The notes under the pieces are model-generated. The model made no database searches, was not told the DNA's origin, and worked only from the letters and a program-made list of their open reading frames with translations. A stretch of DNA of 39,729 bases from Thiorhodospira sibirica ATCC 700588 (GTDB lineage Bacteria; Pseudomonadota; Gammaproteobacteria; Ectothiorhodospirales; Ectothiorhodospiraceae). The stretch covers positions 752,025 to 791,753 of the forward strand of contig NZ_MU255056.1 in assembly GCF_000227725.2 (NCBI RefSeq), written 5' to 3'. Below, in pieces: positions 8,913 through 22,635 of the stretch. The position numbers and the translations under genes were made by a program. Within the stretch, counting starts at the first letter, position 1; each line of letters begins with the position of its first letter.

Positions 8913-10724
8913 TCAGGACGCTTCGTTGGCGGATGGCATGGTGCTCAACCCTTCAGCCCAGCACAGGGTCACCGGGTCTTGTCCACGCCGATCAATAAAC
9001 AGGCTGTTACCGGCTTCTTGTTTGGCCAGATGTTTGACCTCGCTGGCGCGTTTGGAGATGTCCAGATGCGATTGAAACTGTCCGGGGGTGACGGAGGTGA
9101 CGCCAATGGACAGGCTTAGCAGCGGAAAGAAGTGCTGCTGGCCCAGGCGGTCAGTGGCAGACAGGCCGCCGGCCTGACGTTCGCTTTCATCATAAAATCC
9201 GGGGGCCATGGCTGCAAAGGCTTTGAGCAGTTGGGCGCAGCGGGTTTCCCAGTCTGTGCCGCCCAGGACCCAGACAAAATCATCTCCGCCTACATGGCCG
9301 ACAAAATCGTGTTCATGGCGTATTGCGGCTTGCAGTAATGTGCCCAGCGAGCGGATGACTTCGTCGCCACGGGCATAGCCATAGTAATCGTTAAAGGGTT
9401 TGAAGTGATCCAGATCGCAATAGGCTACGGCAAATTCACAGGATTTTTGCAGCATCTGGTTAAGGTATTCATTGATCGGTACATTGCCGGGAAGTTGGGT
9501 TAGGGGGTTGGCATAGCGGGCATAACGGATTTGCAGGGCGGTGATTGTCTGCAACAGATCGACCAACAGCCCGATGCCCAAAAAGCGGCCCGCCTGATCA
9601 ACGATCATAAAATCTTCGATAATGCCATCCTGACGCGAGCTGGTAATCGCATGGCTTAGGGATTCCAGCGGCTCATCTTCGCTGGTGATCAGCACATCCA
9701 TCTGCATAAAAAAACGAATCGGGCGGCGGTCGTGCAGTTCCCGGGTAAAGCGGCGGGCGTAGAGCATAAACAGTTCATTGCGCCGCACAATGCCCACGGG
9801 TTGTTGATTGAGCAGCACGGGCAGGCAGTGCAGCTTGGGGTAGCGCTGAAAAAATTCGATGGTTTCTTTGAGGGTCAGGTCGGGGTGAATGGTTTCGTTG
9901 TCACGCAATAAACTGGCTGCCGTTTCGCCAAGGCTGCGCTGTGGTTGATGGGTCTGCGGGCTTTGGCTGTGTTCGCCTGCGATGGCTTTGAGGTGGGTGA
10001 CGGGTTTTTTGGCCGGTCGGGCAAAATAATGGCCCTGTGCAAAGGGGATATTGAGTCCTTTGATGACATCATATTCGGCCATGACCTCAACGCCTTCGAC
10101 AATGAGCTGTGTTTCCAGGCTGCTGGCGATTTCATGCATGGCGCGCAAAAACTGGCGCTTGGCCTCATCTTGCTGGATGTTTTGCACCACATGCAGGTCC
10201 ATCTTGACGTATTCTGGCCGTAATTCAGACCACAGTCGCACGCTGGGATAGCCACTGCCCAAGGCATCCAGAGCCACCGCAAAGCCTTGATCGCGGTAAT
10301 AGGCCAGTGCGTGATGCCAGAGGCGCTCATCGTGCAGCGGTATGGTTTCGGTGAGTTCGATCACCACCTGCTCAGGACGCAAACCGCTGGCCTGTACCAG
10401 ACGCAAGGTTTGTCCCTGCATGCCGTGCGGATGTTGCAGCGGCAGGGGCGAGACATTGAGAAAGACACGCCCTTGCAGACCCTGCTTGGCGAATTTTTTG
10501 AGGACCATTTCTTGCGCCAAACATTCCAGCTCCAGCAGAAGGTTTTGTTGCAAGGCGTTGGCAAACAGCATGATCGGGGCATGCTGTTCGCTGTTGGCAG
10601 GGCCGCGAATCAGCCCCTCAAAGCCATAGACATGCTGCGGTTCCAGGGCAATAATGGGCTGGAATAAAACGCTCAACGCACGTTCTTTGAGGATTGTTTC
10701 CAATGAACGACACACAGCATCCAT
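8913..10724 (-). CDS. EAL-CBS-GGDEF cyclic-di-GMP protein
   Basis: The 603-residue protein has no membrane segment. Its order is an EAL phosphodiesterase domain (about 10-250, FEGLIRG, VIELTE, VEGVEV), a CBS pair (about 270-395) and a diguanylate cyclase domain (about 420-590) with the active-site GGDDF in HVGGDDFVWVLGG. In the EAL domain the usual DDFG motif reads DALG, so one metal-binding aspartate is missing and phosphodiesterase activity may be weak or lost. The CBS pair suggests control by a nucleotide. The upstream space holds no other gene; comF follows 17 bases after the stop. Confidence 0.9.
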   Translation of the reverse strand: MDAVCRSLETILKERALSVLFQPIIALEPQHVYGFEGLIRGPANSEQHAPIMLFANALQQNLLLELECLAQEMVLKKFAKQGLQGRVFLNVSPLPLQHPHGMQGQTLRLVQASGLRPEQVVIELTETIPLHDERLWHHALAYYRDQGFAVALDALGSGYPSVRLWSELRPEYVKMDLHVVQNIQQDEAKRQFLRAMHEIASSLETQLIVEGVEVMAEYDVIKGLNIPFAQGHYFARPAKKPVTHLKAIAGEHSQSPQTHQPQRSLGETAASLLRDNETIHPDLTLKETIEFFQRYPKLHCLPVLLNQQPVGIVRRNELFMLYARRFTRELHDRRPIRFFMQMDVLITSEDEPLESLSHAITSSRQDGIIEDFMIVDQAGRFLGIGLLVDLLQTITALQIRYARYANPLTQLPGNVPINEYLNQMLQKSCEFAVAYCDLDHFKPFNDYYGYARGDEVIRSLGTLLQAAIRHEHDFVGHVGGDDFVWVLGGTDWETRCAQLLKAFAAMAPGFYDESERQAGGLSATDRLGQQHFFPLLSLSIGVTSVTPGQFQSHLDISKRASEVKHLAKQEAGNSLFIDRRGQDPVTLCWAEGLSTMPSANEAS

Positions 10725-10851
10725 AGGTAATTCACCAAGGCAGAAGGGCGGCCCTTTAGTCTATACCGCGTGTATGACAAAGCGGTTGCAGCGGTGAATA
10801 GTACGGCCCCCCGCTAAACAGGGTATAAGCCAACTATCGCCGGTGGGCGAT

Positions 10852-11373
10852 TTAACGCCATTTGACCACATCATCCAGACGTTTGCGCGGCGTCTCCTGG
10901 GGCAATTCGGCGGCATAGCCAATACATAAGATGGCCACCGGATGACTGCCGGGCTCCAGCGCCAAGGTATCGCGCACGGCTTGTTCGTCGAAAAAACCTA
11001 CCCAGGTTGAGCCAAGGCCGGCCGCCACGACGGCCAGTTGGGCATAGGCCGCAGCAATCGTGGCATCCTGAATGGCATACAGCGTGCGGCCACGCTCCCC
11101 GTATTGCTCTGCACAGCGTTCATTATGCGCACAAAAAACCAGACTCACCGGGGCATCGGCGATAAATTCCTGATCATAGGCGGCTTTGCTTAATGCCTGG
11201 CGCAGTAAGGGCTCGCGCACGGTGACGATGCAATAGGATTGCAAATCGCCCGCCGAGGGTGCCGCCACCGCCGTTTCCAGCACGGCGTGCAGTTTGGCCT
11301 CTTCAACGGGCATGTCCGTTTGATAGCGACGAATGGAATGACGGTGGTGTACGGTTTGGAAAAAATCCCACAT
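10852..11373 (-). CDS. Nitroreductase family protein
   Basis: The 173-residue protein has the FMN-binding start FFQTVHHRHSIRRYQTD, central AAPSAGDLQSYCIVTV and the C-terminal GLGSTWVGFFDEQAVR-LCIGY typical of nitroreductase/BluB-like flavoproteins. It should reduce nitro compounds or quinones with NAD(P)H; the true substrate is unknown. The start chosen is the ATG at 11373, because GGAGGAG lies seven bases upstream. A GTG at 11388 would overlap that ribosome-binding site. It stands alone, divergent from the ribosomal operon. Confidence 0.88.
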   Translation of the reverse strand: MWDFFQTVHHRHSIRRYQTDMPVEEAKLHAVLETAVAAPSAGDLQSYCIVTVREPLLRQALSKAAYDQEFIADAPVSLVFCAHNERCAEQYGERGRTLYAIQDATIAAAYAQLAVVAAGLGSTWVGFFDEQAVRDTLALEPGSHPVAILCIGYAAELPQETPRKRLDDVVKWR

Positions 11374-15976: not shown

Positions 15977-17518
15977 TTATTCGGTGCGCGGTGAACGGGA
16001 CGGGATCTGCGCCAGTAGCCTTACGACGACCTGCTGATTTAGCTGTGCCTGGGCACGAAAGGCCCCTTGGTAGGCCAGCTCTTCCTGATTGAGGGCGTAG
16101 CAGTTGGCGCCACGGATATCGGCGAGTATCGCGGGCAGGCCACTGTCTGCAAAGGCATGGGCGCGTTTGAGATAAAAATGCCCGCAGCACATGCCCAGAT
16201 AGGCCTCGATGCCTTCCTGCTTGAGGCGCGTTAAGGTTTGGCATAAATGTTCGTAGTGTGTGATGGTGATGACCTCAAGCCCTCGCACCTCGGCCAGCGC
16301 ATACACCTCGCCCACCGCACAGGCGCCGCATTGCGTACAGTGATCCTCATGTCGCCACGGGCAGTTTTTGGCCTTGGCGCAATAGGGCACCAGGACGACA
16401 CCACAACGCTTAAGAAGCGCTGTGGTGGAGACGATTTCACGGGGGGCAACGACCATCAGGGTATTGGCCTCGCGCACGCTCAGGCCCAGCTGTTGCTGTT
16501 CGGCCCGCCCCAGCACCCGCCCCAGTAGGGTGAGCATGTCCTGATCGTTAAAACCAACCGCAGTATAAGGCTGCGTTGCCAGACAGCCCTTGAGCACCTC
16601 CGGGGCCTGCTCTAGCGAAACCCCGGCAAGACGCTCCTCCAGAGCGGTCAGCCAATCCAGCGGTGCCAGCTGCGCGGTGGTGCTAAAGACGGCCTCTTGA
16701 ATGCGCTGTCTGGTGGCATCAAGCTGCACACGCAGATATAACACCCCACCCGTTGTCGGCAAAAAAGCCTGCCAGCTCTGGTTTTCATCGACCTGCCAGT
16801 CCCGATCGAGCCAGGGATTGACCGGGGGCAGACTGGCCGTTGTGACAACAGAAGCCGTAGTTATCGGCTGGGCCGTAATCCGCTGTGGGGTCGCTCCCAA
16901 TGCGCGGCTGAGCGCTTGCCACAGCGCCTGCTCCACGGCGCGCCAATCCACCGGCCCATCCAGAACCTCTTGCAAGGTGGTGAAATGTTCGCGGGCACTG
17001 CGGATACCCTCATCGGTGAGCTTTTCTCGCGGGGCGCGCAACACCTGCAGGGTAGTGGTGACATCCATCGTGCCCCATAAAAAGAGCTGATATAGCAGCC
17101 CGCCGGGCAACCATGCCAAGGTTCCTTGCGCCACCTGCCGCTGGGCAACGTCTATGCTATTGGGCGCCTGCGCCTGGGCATCCAGGCCCAGATCCCCCAG
17201 ACCGGCGGCGACCGCCGTGTTGAGGCGCTGCAGCCACTGCGCAAGACAGGGCATGGCCTGCCTTGGCAGCGGCACCGCCAGCGTCAGCACGCCTTGCCCA
17301 CCATCCAGATACACGGCTCCACCACCGGTCAGCCGCCGCTGTACTACAATTCCCTGCTGCTGGCAAAAATCCTCGCGGATAGCGTGGCAGCGTGCCTCAA
17401 AACGCCCAATACTCGCCTGTGGGGTACTTTGGGCAAAATGCAGCAGGGGATATTGTTGCTCGTGCGCCTGGTTGAGCAGTGCCAGGGCATGTGCTGCAGG
17501 ATCTTGATATATCATCAT
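15977..17518 (-). CDS. Lipoate-protein-ligase-like domain fused to DUF116
   Basis: The 513-residue protein has an N-terminal LplA/LipB-like domain (about 1-270) with RRLTGGGAVYLDGGQ and a VLRAPREKLTDEGIRSAREH block. A C-terminal DUF116 domain (about 340-500) contains VPYCAKAKNCPWR, CTQCGACAVGEVYALAEV and GMCCGHFYLKRAHAF. The catalytic lysine normally found in the ligase motif (GRKIAG-like) appears to be replaced: the region reads NSIDVAQRQVAQGTLAW. The first half may therefore bind lipoate or a related acid without classic adenylation transfer. The cysteines of DUF116 suggest metal or Fe-S binding. No partner gene is adjacent, and both neighbours are convergent or unrelated. Confidence 0.8.
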   Translation of the reverse strand: MMIYQDPAAHALALLNQAHEQQYPLLHFAQSTPQASIGRFEARCHAIREDFCQQQGIVVQRRLTGGGAVYLDGGQGVLTLAVPLPRQAMPCLAQWLQRLNTAVAAGLGDLGLDAQAQAPNSIDVAQRQVAQGTLAWLPGGLLYQLFLWGTMDVTTTLQVLRAPREKLTDEGIRSAREHFTTLQEVLDGPVDWRAVEQALWQALSRALGATPQRITAQPITTASVVTTASLPPVNPWLDRDWQVDENQSWQAFLPTTGGVLYLRVQLDATRQRIQEAVFSTTAQLAPLDWLTALEERLAGVSLEQAPEVLKGCLATQPYTAVGFNDQDMLTLLGRVLGRAEQQQLGLSVREANTLMVVAPREIVSTTALLKRCGVVLVPYCAKAKNCPWRHEDHCTQCGACAVGEVYALAEVRGLEVITITHYEHLCQTLTRLKQEGIEAYLGMCCGHFYLKRAHAFADSGLPAILADIRGANCYALNQEELAYQGAFRAQAQLNQQVVVRLLAQIPSRSPRTE

Positions 17519-17660: not shown

Positions 17661-17930
17661 TCATAAAAACGGTGGGAAAAGCCGAACGCCAAATGCCCCC
17701 CGGAAGGGATGTTCAACGATGGCCCGCACCGCACAGAGTATCCGGTTGAAGGCCTTTTGAGCCTTGGGTAGCTTCCCGCCCGTCGGTTTCTTGATCGGCG
17801 TCAGCGCAGGCAGGGAAGCCGCAGCGACGTTTTCAATGCCGGGCGGGTGAGCGGCGTTCCCAGGTTTTCGTGCCGGGCTGGGGCTTGGTGCGCTCAAAGA
17901 TGTTACAATCCTGCGGTGCGTAGCCATGAT
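17661..17930 (-). pseudogene. Degenerate C-terminal fragment of a DDE transposase
   Basis: The minus strand encodes LTPIKKPTGGKLPKAQKAFN followed by RILCAVRAIVEHPFRG, the typical end of IS5/IS1182-like DDE transposases. Upstream in a shifted frame is RTKPQPGTKTWERR. The fragment is frameshifted and lacks the catalytic region. Nothing else is seen in the 490-base gap between the LplA/DUF116 gene and the cyclophilin gene apart from this fossil. Confidence 0.5.
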
Positions 17931-18010
17931 TTGGGCATTTAATAATGATGACCGCATTCGTTGCGCGCGATGATTTCTATGTATCATTAAATGCATGAGG
18001 GAATTGCACA

Positions 18011-18592
18011 ATGTCTTTCAAGACACTATTTTTTGTCCTCGTTGTACTCATTTTCATTAGCATAGGTAACTTTAGCATGGCGGAAAACCAAAACCCTCAG
18101 GTCAAACTCACCACGACGCAAGGTGTTGTTGTATTGGAGCTGTATCCTGAGAAGGCACCCATCACCGTGGAAAATTTTCTCAACTACGCCAATGAGGGTT
18201 TTTACACGGGTACTGTTTTTCACCGTGTGATCCCTAATTTTATGGTTCAGGGCGGGGGGTTTAGCGCAGATATGCAGCAAAAACCCACCGGTGAAACCAT
18301 TCGCAACGAGGCCAATAACGGTCTGAAAAATGACACTGGTACGATTGCCATGGCCAGAACCCCCGATCCGCATTCGGCTTCTTCGCAGTTTTTTATCAAT
18401 GTCGCGGATAATGATTTTCTCAACTTTAAGTCTGAAACCTCGCAAGGCTTTGGTTATGCGGTGTTTGGGCGGGTGATTGAGGGAATGGATGTGGTGAGTC
18501 GTATTGTGGCGGTACCGACAGGACGCAGCGGGATGCATCAGGATGTGCCTAAAGATCCGATCGAGATTACCCAGGTTGAGGTCATCCAGTAA
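18011..18592 (+). CDS. Periplasmic peptidyl-prolyl cis-trans isomerase (cyclophilin)
   Basis: The 193-residue protein has an N-terminal signal peptide (about 1-24, hydrophobic FFVLVVLIFISIGNFSMA). A full cyclophilin domain follows: VVLELYPEKAPITVENFLNY, FHRVIPNFMVQGGGF, TGTIAMARTPDPHSASSQFF and VFGRVIEGMDVV. It resembles PpiA and should act on proline bonds in the periplasm. The lpxH start follows 19 bases after its stop, the classical ppi-lpxH arrangement. Confidence 0.94.
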   Translation: MSFKTLFFVLVVLIFISIGNFSMAENQNPQVKLTTTQGVVVLELYPEKAPITVENFLNYANEGFYTGTVFHRVIPNFMVQGGGFSADMQQKPTGETIRNEANNGLKNDTGTIAMARTPDPHSASSQFFINVADNDFLNFKSETSQGFGYAVFGRVIEGMDVVSRIVAVPTGRSGMHQDVPKDPIEITQVEVIQ

Positions 18593-19385: not shown

Positions 19386-20678
19386 TTAGCGAATAATACT
19401 TAACCAGCCAACGAGGGCGAGCAGGGTGATGAGTAACACCGGCGGGGTGATGAGAATGCCGATTTTGAAATATTGCCCCCAGGTGATGCGCATCCCTTTG
19501 CGGGCGAGGACGTGTAGCCAGAGCAAGGTGGCCAGACTGCCAATCGGGGTGATTTTGGGGCCCAGATCTGAGCCGATGACGTTGGCGTAGATCATGGCCT
19601 CTTTGATCAGGCCATCGACGTTGGCCTGGTCGATGGAGAGGGCGACGACCATCACGGCGGGCATATTGTTCATGATGGAGGACAAAAACGCGGCGATAAA
19701 GCCGGTGCCCACGGTCGCCACCAATAGCCCCTGTCCTGCCAGCCAGTCAAGCCCTTGGGCAATGTCGGCGGTCAGGCCCGCGTTGCGCAGTCCATAGACC
19801 ACCAGATACATTCCCAGCGAGAAGATCACAATCTGCCACGGGGCATGACGCAAGACCTGGCGTGTGGAAATGCGATGCCCTCGGGCGGCAACCATGAGCA
19901 ACAGCGCCGCACCAACGCCAACAATCGCCGAGATCGGCACGCCCATCGGCTCAATCACCATAAAGGCAAACAGCAGCAGTGCCAAGACTGCCCAGCCGGT
20001 TTTAAAGACGGTGGGGTCTTTGATGGCCTGTGCTGGGGTGCGCAGGTCGTTGAGGGCATAGTGGCGCGGGATCTGTTTGCGAAACAGCAGATACAGCACG
20101 CTTAAAGAGGCGGCGACCGACACCAGATTGACCACGATCATCACGCTGGCGTATTCACGAAAGCCAATCCCGAAAAAATCCGCCGAGACGATATTTACCA
20201 GATTGGAAATCACCAGCGGCAGGCTGGCGGTATCCGCGATAAAGCCCGCCGCTACCACAAAGGCCAAGGCGGCCCCGGCAGAAAAGCCCAGCGCCAGCAG
20301 CATTTCCAGCACAATCGGGGTGAGCATCAAGGCCGCGCCGTCATTGGCAAACATCGCTGCCACCGCTGCACCGAGCAAGATGATCAGAACGTATAATTTT
20401 ACCCCATTGCCCCCGCCCCAGCGCGCCACATGTAAGGCCGCCCACTCAAAAAAGCCAGCCTCATCCAGCAATAGCGAGATGATGATGATAAACACAAAGG
20501 TCAGGGTAGCATTCCAGACAATATCCACCACTATCGGCACATCGGAAAATTGCACCACGCCGGTTAATAAAGCCACAGCAGCCCCGGCCAGGGCGCTCCA
20601 GCCAATGCCCAGCCCTTTGGGCTGCCAGATAACCAGGGTAATGGTGACGATAAAAATAGTCAGTGCGGTGAGTAGCAT
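19386..20678 (-). CDS. arsB: Arsenite efflux pump membrane protein ArsB
   Basis: The 430-residue protein has about 12 membrane segments and matches E. coli ArsB along its length: [88 protein letters not shown] and [17 protein letters not shown]. It exports arsenite or antimonite in exchange for protons, alone or with ArsA; no arsA is seen here. It is the last gene of the minus-strand arsR-arsC-arsB set, 106 bases after arsC. Confidence 0.97.
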
Positions 20679-20784
20679 AGCGTTCGGATGAATTCCTGAT
20701 CAGATGAACGGAAAACACGCCATTTGTCGGCGTGCGTTGATTGTTTTGATAGTTGCCTAACAGTCAAAATAAACGGCAAAAAAA

Positions 20785-21264
20785 TCAGCCGAAACGCTCA
20801 CCGATCTCATCCAGATGGCGCTTGAAGGCCTCAGGGTCGGTGATCAGCGTATGGAGCGGCAGTGCTAAAAAGGCCTCAATGCGCTGGCGCAGGGTGTGAT
20901 AGGCCGTCTGGAAGGCGGCATTAATCTGGGCCTCGGTGCCGCTGGCCTGTGCTGGATCAGCCACGCCCCAATGACTGCGCACGGCCTGCCCCAGGTAGGC
21001 CGGACATGTTTCCCCGGCGGCATGGGCGCATACACTGATGACGATATCGGGTGTCTGTGGCAGGGCGTCCCAGGATTTGCTGTGCAAGCCAGCAGTTTGA
21101 ATGCCCTCGCGGGCCAATAAGGCCAGTGAACGCGGATGCACTTGGCCGGTTGGCTGACTGCCAGCGCTCATGGCCTGCCAGCCCGCTGGCGCAAGGTGGT
21201 TAAAGGTCGCCTCGGCGAGAATGGAACGACAGGAATTGCCGGTGCATAGAAACAGGATGTGCAT
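20785..21264 (-). CDS. arsC: Arsenate reductase, LMW-phosphatase type (ArsC)
   Basis: The 159-residue protein begins MHILFLCTGNSCRSILAEA, the CX5R phosphatase loop of low-molecular-weight phosphatase-type ArsC. It continues with MSAGSQPTGQVHP, GLHSKSWDALPQTPDIVISV and the aspartate-bearing SHWGVADPAQASG. The second active cysteine of thioredoxin-linked ArsC would be in VCAHAAGETCPAY. It reduces arsenate to arsenite for export by the neighbouring ArsB. The upstream gap of about 350 bases holds an IS607-type right-end remnant that separates it from arsR. Confidence 0.94.
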   Translation of the reverse strand: MHILFLCTGNSCRSILAEATFNHLAPAGWQAMSAGSQPTGQVHPRSLALLAREGIQTAGLHSKSWDALPQTPDIVISVCAHAAGETCPAYLGQAVRSHWGVADPAQASGTEAQINAAFQTAYHTLRQRIEAFLALPLHTLITDPEAFKRHLDEIGERFG

Positions 21265-21520
21265 AGCGATGCTCTTTCAGGATTTAGGGTTGATGGGGGG
21301 GAGCAAAAAACAGTTCTTGATTTTTTCTTCATTCTTCATCAAAATTCCCTACTGTAGATAGGTTATCTACAAGCGCGAAGGTTTCGCGTTCCATGGTCGG
21401 GGTCGAAGTCGAATCGCAAAGTTGTTCTCTGTTCAGGATGAACGCCGAGGCCACTTTTATGGCGCAAGCTGGGTTTCGACGGCTGAAACCGCCCATGTTG
21501 CCGGTGTTGACCGGCCATTC

Positions 21521-21632
21521 GGTTGGGACTGCTCAACCAGGACTCCAGTTGCTCGCCCGCAAGGGTGTTATCAACGGAGAGCGAAGTGCCTAAAAATCGC
21601 ATAAGCAACTTTGTTTAGGTTTTTAGGAGCAG
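21521..21632 (+). repeat. Solo right end and tnpB tail of an IS607-type element
   Basis: These 112 bases match the minus-strand sequence at 38074-38186. The first 65 or so bases are identical, with scattered differences after that, and both end in AGGTTTTTAGGAGCAG. In the full element this stretch is the tnpB 3' end plus the right terminus, where TnpB guide RNA (omega RNA) is normally encoded. Here the frame still reads GLLNQDSSCSPARVLSTESE, but no transposase body precedes it. Sequence from about 21370 to 21520 is unassigned. The right boundary enters the 3' end of arsR. Confidence 0.75.
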
Positions 21633-21968
21633 TACCGTTGTCGCACAACCAGAGGACTGACGCATTTGTGCGCATTGCTCCGGCTCCCCAGCGCAGCATT
21701 CCTCGGTGAGATAGGCAATCAGCGACAGCATTAAGGGAATATCGGCGCGATACCGCAAAAAGCGCCCCTCCTGCTCCACCTGTAGCAATCCCGCCTGAGT
21801 CAGGGTTTTGAGATGGAAAGACAGGTTAGCCGGTGGAATATCCAAAGCGGTGGCAATGTCTCCTGCCACCAGGCCGCTGCTGCCGGTTTTGACCAGTAAG
21901 CGAAACACCTCCAGCCGGATCCCGGAGGCCAATGATTCAAACAGGGTGGTTGCCTTTTTTTGATTCAT
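21615..21968 (-). CDS. arsR: ArsR-family arsenic-responsive repressor
   Basis: The 117-residue protein has a winged HTH (FESLASGIRLEVFRLLVK, ALDIPPANLSFHLKTL) and a cysteine cluster near the C-terminus, ECCAGEPEQC. This cluster resembles the arsenite-binding site of the Acidithiobacillus type rather than the plasmid R773 type. ATG at 21968 is chosen; the open frame extends further upstream but without family similarity. The last residues, LLLKT and the stop, are encoded inside the IS607-type right-end repeat, so the natural C-terminus was replaced. Cysteines and HTH are upstream of that point, and function is probably kept. Confidence 0.93.
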   Translation of the reverse strand: MNQKKATTLFESLASGIRLEVFRLLVKTGSSGLVAGDIATALDIPPANLSFHLKTLTQAGLLQVEQEGRFLRYRADIPLMLSLIAYLTEECCAGEPEQCAQMRQSSGCATTVLLLKT

Positions 21969-22020
21969 GCTTAAATAATAAAACAAATTTTTAAATAAAT
22001 ACAAGCGAACGCTTATCGCA
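21969..22020 (-). promoter_or_regulatory. AT-rich operator/promoter region of arsR
   Basis: The minus strand upstream of arsR has two TTATTTAA repeats about 16 bases apart, with TTCGCTTGTATTTA further up. ArsR-family operators are commonly AT-rich repeats of this type that overlap the promoter. The exact operator is inferred only from position and composition. Confidence 0.35.
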
Positions 22021-22635
22021 ACATCCCGCGCTGCATTCTGCTGTGCCATACGGCGTTTTGCCGAGGGCCTGGGGTGCCAGGCCACAGATGCGCATGGGCA
22101 CACATTGGGTCGGTTTTCCCGGCATTTGGCCGACCGTTTAGCCCGCCATAAACGGCTGGCTTTACATGGGCAGTAAAAGTGGCTAATATTGCGCCGCATC
22201 AGAGGCAACAGAGGCTTTTAGCCACTTTATGGATTCTTGCAGTTGTAGTCCCCAACAAAAGAAGGCCGGTTCTGGCCGACGGTTTCCCGATTACCCTACA
22301 CACCTCAAGTCAAGCCCTTCCGCGATCCACTAATCGTCGTTTTGGCCTCTTGACCTGTTGTTGTATCAGGAAACAGCCGGGCAAGAGACAAAATACCCTA
22401 CCCAGCAGACAGTATCTTTGAAAAGATGCGGGTCTTTGGGTTTCTTATTTTGTTAATTCCAGCACAAACATGCCACATGACCGTTATCGCGTCTGCGCAG
22501 AGGATGCGTGGCGCTGTCTTTGATCGGTCATGGTCAGTCCGTCCTTCCTGTACGGTTGCTTTGTTATTTACGACAGGGCTGAGTTTATTAAAACCTTTTT
22601 AAGAATATCGCCCCAGGCGACGTGAGGAGACTGGC
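22021..22635. other. Intergenic stretch, no gene recognised
   Basis: There is about 615 bases between the arsR control region and the next gene. It holds no convincing reading frame. An ATGACCG/CGGTCAT inverted pair at about 22478 and 22530 and several AT-rich patches (22440-22460, 22580-22605) could belong to the promoter of the gene at 22636. GGTTTCCCGATTACCC near 22280 only faintly recalls an intron end, and no further intron structure was found. Confidence 0.4.

Follow-up and report, generated by a model that had tools for sequence, protein, structure and literature searches.

Gene neighbourhoods of a ligase-like DUF116 fusion point to an unexplored link between the lipoate and ubiquinone pathways of sulfur oxidisers

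The window analyzed here (the whole stretch of 39,729 nucleotides from Thiorhodospira sibirica) contains a gene that fuses a lipoate-ligase-like body to a DUF116 domain, and the neighbourhoods of the relatives of this gene point to an unexplored link between the lipoate and ubiquinone pathways in sulfur oxidisers. The ligases that it resembles attach lipoate, a vitamin-like cofactor, to proteins. The family was found in sulfur-oxidising Pseudomonadota, which mostly own both the LipS1/S2 system and oxygen-independent ubiquinone synthesis. Our tentative reading, which we hold with somewhat less than even confidence, is that these fusions are Fe-S-tailed Lpl(AB) proteins of sulfur oxidisers in anoxic niches and that the window gene is a diverged member of this DUF116-bearing ligase family. 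The fusion is thus a candidate gene where LipS1/S2 lipoate assembly, a part of sulfur oxidation, meets UbiUV ubiquinone synthesis without oxygen, both of which are recently recognised pathways.

The open reading frame of the fusion starts with ATG and is intact over 513 aa (Table 1). Its two Pfam matches exceed their cut-offs (LplA-B_cat: 83.4 bits vs 27; DUF116: 34.3 bits vs 25) and both models are matched by all 59 aligned members. The Pfam matches of the window protein and of these members include no DNA-binding or signalling domain. The first-pass annotation had reported the signatures RRLTGGGAVY and VLRAPREKLTDEG in the N-terminal half, and both are present in the protein, as are the strings QRQVAQG, CTQCGAC and GMCCGH. 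Within the acyl-binding motif, R62 and G66 are invariant in the family alignment and R61 and G67 are conserved in more than 90% of the rows. The AlphaFold model of the window protein, built on a 59-sequence alignment, reached a mean pLDDT of 91.9. The structural comparison with LplA ligases that had been proposed revealed a whole LplA+LplB fold over residues 1-333 (6jom: VIA Z 26.1, rmsd 3.3, 303 aligned; 5ij6: VIA Z 25.9; whole LplA+LplB ligases at Z about 25-26). Because these residues match complete ligases, the protein contains a full ligase body that extends beyond LplA alone; the LplB domain between the two halves had been overlooked in the initial description.

Table 1. Features of the fusion gene in the window
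Feature	Position	Strand	Evidence
Lpl(AB)-DUF116 fusion gene, 513 aa	15977..17518	(-)	ORF, homologue search, model
LplA-type catalytic domain, aa 12-203	16910..17485	(-)	Pfam PF21948 2.7e-23; LplA fold
RRLTGGGAVY acyl-binding motif, aa 61-70	17309..17338	(-)	sequence
Gln128 codon, catalytic-lysine position	17135..17137	(-)	alignment to relatives and solved ligases
LplB-like accessory domain, about aa 250-330, limits approximate	16529..16771	(-)	fold alignment
DUF116 domain, aa 371-474	16097..16408	(-)	PF01976 1.9e-8

The C-terminal half was described as cysteine-rich, which agrees with its Pfam match and with eight cysteines (C380, C386, C394, C397, C400, C444, C445 and C473) that are invariant in an 18-row alignment. 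The proposal of a modified lipoate enzyme coupled to a metal or Fe-S domain holds for the ligase-like fold and its cysteine-rich companion, and the binding of an Fe-S cluster is presumed from the eight cysteines. Searches of solved structures with the DUF116 sequence returned nothing below E 0.2, and the fold search yielded Rossmann-like matches but no usable lead (best Z 9.6, a designed protein; others <8). One candidate, a chain of the Elp-Hdr complex (8rvy), was rejected since its Z of 6.2 lies within the noise.

In 369 genomes of the class, our search recovered 14 full-length homologues, distributed over 13 genomes. Directly upstream of nine of these homologues, on the same strand, are ubiU and ubiV (tblastn), with ubiT nearby in seven of the nine cases (UbiU, UbiV and UbiT representatives were assigned by NCBIfam models). 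UbiV passes its cut-off in every one of the 13 carriers and, overall, in 93 of the 369 genomes. Among the 80 named loci, which are the best of 244 relatives, UbiV was found in 48, always on the same strand (48/48), and in 43 of these its distance to the match ends is within 200 bp; UbiT was found in 32 of the 48. This value of 48/80 is not an unbiased rate because the search alignment was dominated by ubiUV-linked members, and the class set is less biased than these best 80 of 244. For the remaining 32 of the best 80 loci, 16 have UbiV over the cut-off elsewhere in the genome and two have UbiV matches of 231-273 bits, under the cut-off of 275; 14 of these 80 named carriers are without UbiV of that strength and nine of the 14 are Thioalkalivibrio. 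Two genomes were each found to carry two full-length fusions, only one of which is linked to ubiUV (L045 and L046 in G207; L149 and L156 in one MAG).

The presence of the fusion also tracks LipS1, the lipoate synthase of sulfur oxidisers. LipS1 matches fall under the NCBIfam cut-off, with none of the 369 class genomes exceeding 230 bits, and LipS1 was taken as present from 184 bits upward in the class (next best 60), from 146 bits in the window's family (next best 49) and from 130 bits in the named genomes (next best 49). Strong LipS1 matches were found in 26 of the 369 class genomes, and 10 of the 13 fusion carriers are among them. The fusion is present in 10 of the 12 class genomes with both LipS1 and UbiV (the exceptions being G035 and G186), in none of the 14 with LipS1 only, in 3 of the 81 with UbiV only and in none of the 262 with neither (P = 1.2e-5 within LipS1-positive and P = 2.2e-9 within UbiV-positive genomes; Fisher test ignoring kinship). 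For the window's family (47 genomes), the corresponding values are 14/14, 8/26 (one truncated at a contig end), 0/4 and 3/3, the last three all being MAGs of 67-80% completeness, so that LipS1 is found in 22 of the 25 carriers (the truncated one included). LipS1 was also present in 45 of 50 named carrier genomes, picked for spread from the best 80 of 244 relatives. LipS1 alone is nonetheless insufficient, as the fusion is absent from 18 of 26 family genomes and from all 14 class genomes that are LipS1-positive and UbiV-negative. The three class carriers with UbiV only (L012, L013 and L014; wider loci L047-L049) all belong to family f122; their fusions are divergent and not linked to ubiUV, and the conserved genes in their vicinity are MgtE and TldD.

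Some of the fusions are physically associated with lipoate genes. Thioalkalivibrio MAGs have the fusion in divergent orientation to LipS1, sLpl(AB), a geranylgeranyl-reductase-like (LipT-like) gene and LipS2; the accessible text of PMC10332631 reports that the LipS1-sLpl(AB)-LipT-LipS2 gene set modifies LbpA. In two Alphaproteobacteria (L159 and L163), the fusion adjoins lbpA with LipS1 and LipT-like genes behind, and genes named by eye as DsrE-like lie between them in L159. At three further loci (L117, L118 and L125), the fusion is upstream of a class-II amidotransferase, a type of protein to which the same accessible text gives the name LipX. At L158, a short second ORF (10640-11150) about 2 kb downstream of the fusion matches DUF116 only.

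These associations can be combined in the ligase reading that we favor. The LplA+LplB body would bind octanoate or lipoate, and typical members would activate the acyl group as acyl-AMP at the conserved lysine before handing it on to a lipoyl carrier, for example LbpA. The cysteines of DUF116 may hold an oxygen-labile Fe-S cluster tying the activity to anoxic cells, which would explain the usual placement of the gene behind ubiU-ubiV. The carriers without UbiV and the lip/lbpA neighbourhoods favor a lipoate-system protein of sulfur oxidisers living without oxygen. Several observations speak against it: the commonest physical neighbour is ubiUV rather than lipoate genes, these organisms already own sLpl(AB), the loop after the lysine is unlike that of the compared ligases, the three f122 carriers are without LipS1, and FNR-like sites are not above chance in the window (16 vs 17.3 expected), with none notable upstream of the fusion. 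According to the first-pass annotation, its lipoate reading would be refuted if the gene consistently accompanied a non-lipoate pathway. The ubiUV neighbourhood is partly of this kind, but lipoate genes co-occur as strongly and the lipoate reading is therefore not refuted.

The tight linkage to ubiUV favors a role with UbiUV. Alternatively, the fusion might be an accessory of UbiU-UbiV in sulfur oxidisers; the Fe-S domain of the fusion, with or without a bound lipoyl group, would receive electrons from the UbiUV hydroxylase or mature it. We regard this as unlikely, though worth serious attention: it would account for the position directly behind ubiV, for the UbiV found in every class carrier and for the contrast among LipS1-positive class genomes between those with and without UbiV (10/12 vs 0/14, a test made with no phylogenetic correction), and the electron acceptor of UbiUV is described as unidentified in the accessible text of PMC10470549. 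However, 78 of the 81 UbiV-positive LipS1-negative class genomes are without the fusion, E. coli makes anaerobic ubiquinone with UbiUVT (same accessible text), and 11 family genomes carry the fusion without UbiV over the cut-off, three of them incomplete MAGs.

The window copy itself is linked neither to ubiUV nor to lip or lbpA genes, and no conserved neighbours were seen around it. The gene stands alone between a Nif3-like gene on one side and, directly upstream, an ORF at 17661-18011 next to a peptidylprolyl isomerase. This ORF weakly matches an IS5-family transposase (1.4e-4, well under the cut-off) and is a possible insertion remnant. Further along the window, ArsB-like transporter, arsenate-reductase-like (TIGR02691, 81 bits, below cut-off) and ArsR-like genes (19386-22208, minus strand; transporter and regulator named by eye) resemble an ars operon. 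The genome search proposed at first pass, for lbpA, lipS and shdr genes, recovered lipoate and sHdr-like genes, all far from the fusion, in line with the suggested sulfur-oxidising setting. These comprise LipS1 (74% to a Thioalkalivibrio protein), an sLpl(AB) of 356 aa that adjoins erpA (67% to a Thioalkalivibrio protein) and a cluster of DsrE-like, Fer4, cysteine-rich CCG and FAD proteins with a GcvH-like LbpA, which we take to be sHdr-like from its gene order. A second GcvH-like LbpA is encoded elsewhere in the genome. UbiV, with UbiU alongside, and UbiT are present and also distant from the window gene. Beside erpA and sLpl(AB), isochorismate-synthase-like, MenD-like (both named by eye) and MenB-like (ECH_1 match) genes (L035, 4382-8417) suggest a menaquinone pathway.

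The catalytic lysine had been described as seemingly missing, with QRQVAQG in its place. This stands for the window protein, where Gln128 occupies the position, and fails as a trait of the family, an interpretation that we dropped since 86 of 91 distinct fusions keep the lysine (Arg 2, Thr 2, Gln 1, the last being the window copy; 94 rows less the duplicates L085, L086 and L153). In a profile of 59 members, the family lysine aligns with a lysine of 5iby, 1vqz, 2ars and 3r07. The Lys state requires four changes on the tree, and the lysine was also lost in L005, L006, L007 and L148, lineages that remain in the ubiUV locus. That the loss is confined to a few members had been missed, together with the absence of an N-terminal segment. 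The sLpl(AB) paralogue of the same genome retains its Lys. By alignment, the difference that is family-wide is the loop after the lysine, not lysine loss. All 26 rows of short paralogues resembling sLpl(AB) (25 distinct) have Kx-S-G-T-G there, and a KxxG loop is also seen in the solved ligases aligned with the family profile; in most fusions the loop is Kx-[A/G]-S-x-F, and position +3 of the lysine holds Gly in only 6 of 91 and Gln in the window copy. Compared with the Lpl(AB) ligases, the window copy possesses the fold with LplB and the RR..GG motif and is without the lysine and the KxxG loop.

The window copy appears unusually diverged. Before the lysine position, Ser replaces Asp and Gln replaces Gly. 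The copy deviates at 6 of 29 strongly conserved columns of the LplA half, the highest count of 59 rows (tied with one other), and at 4 of 48 strongly conserved DUF116 columns. On a FastTree tree it joins an Ectothiorhodospira clade (support 94) with a branch of 1.27 vs 0.02-0.46 for the other members, a long branch whose position is unsure. Its identity to this clade is 37-40% for LplA and 52-57% for DUF116; L096, its nearest neighbour, reaches 56-60% and 72-78%. The window protein used alone as query found no relative in the named genomes; the family alignment did. The open frame reaches only two codons beyond the start (515 aa), which indicates that the N-terminal segment seen in several relatives is missing. 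The lysine is required in this ligase family, so the window copy most likely forms no acyl-AMP, and with the loss of the lysine, the preceding Asp and Gly and the N-terminal segment it has probably ceased to be a ligase. Binding of acyl groups and of a cluster may persist.

Such a protein could be a decaying, functionless duplicate, the rest of the family being an ordinary second lipoate ligase. The lost lysine, the N-terminal shortening, the long branch, the location apart from ubiUV and the weak IS5-like match upstream would all fit. We consider this improbable, as the 513-aa frame is intact, all eight DUF116 cysteines are retained, the model is predicted with high confidence and the lysine has also disappeared from lineages whose gene remains at the ubiUV locus. 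It is more improbable still that the fusion is a sensor, a pseudo-ligase that would bind an Fe-S cluster together with lipoate or octanoate and report both to another protein: the lysine was lost repeatedly while the acyl-binding motif and the cysteines were kept, which would suit it, but nearly all members keep the lysine and the Pfam matches offer no DNA-binding or signalling domain.

A bolder version of the lipoate-ubiquinone link, which we consider a long shot, is that the fusion acts on UbiU-UbiV as a redox partner bearing both a lipoyl group and an Fe-S cluster. In sulfur oxidisers, the lipoyl group made by LipS1/S2 would be held on or loaded by the fusion and would join oxygen-independent aromatic hydroxylation, and lysine-less copies would bind rather than ligate. 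If so, lipoate would take part in making ubiquinone. With its position behind ubiV and its co-occurrence with LipS1, the fusion opens the electron partner of UbiUV and the function of DUF116 to testing.

Our literature searches, which covered subscription journals only to a small extent, found nothing for DUF116 with lipoate or for PF01976. Searches on DUF116 alone gave no title concerning the fusion protein and no DUF116 function, and the accessible text on ubiquinone, lipoate-protein ligase and UbiU describes no such fusion. DUF116 (PF01976) is a curated model that is here fused to a ligase. With the UbiT/UbiU/UbiV pathway (PMC6747719 and PMC11707229), the fusion shares locus and genomes, with no sequence relation noted, and the accessible parts of both papers do not mention it as a component. 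The solved LplA/LplB ligases 5ij6, 6jom and 1x2g share the fold of residues 1-333 of the window protein, which differs from them by its low identity (16-19%), its extra C-terminal domain and its lack of the lysine. The closest known system is the sLpl(AB) of sHdr sulfur oxidisers (Thioalkalivibrio and Hyphomicrobium; accessible text of PMC10332631 and PMC6067878), which has the same LplA+LplB architecture and RR..GG motif, shares the catalytic lysine with most fusion members and occurs in the same genomes. In contrast to sLpl(AB), the fusions carry the additional DUF116, replace the KxSGTG loop by Kx[A/G]S.F, lie mostly in the ubiUV locus and are mostly about 24-42% identical to a Thioalkalivibrio sLpl(AB) (tblastn).
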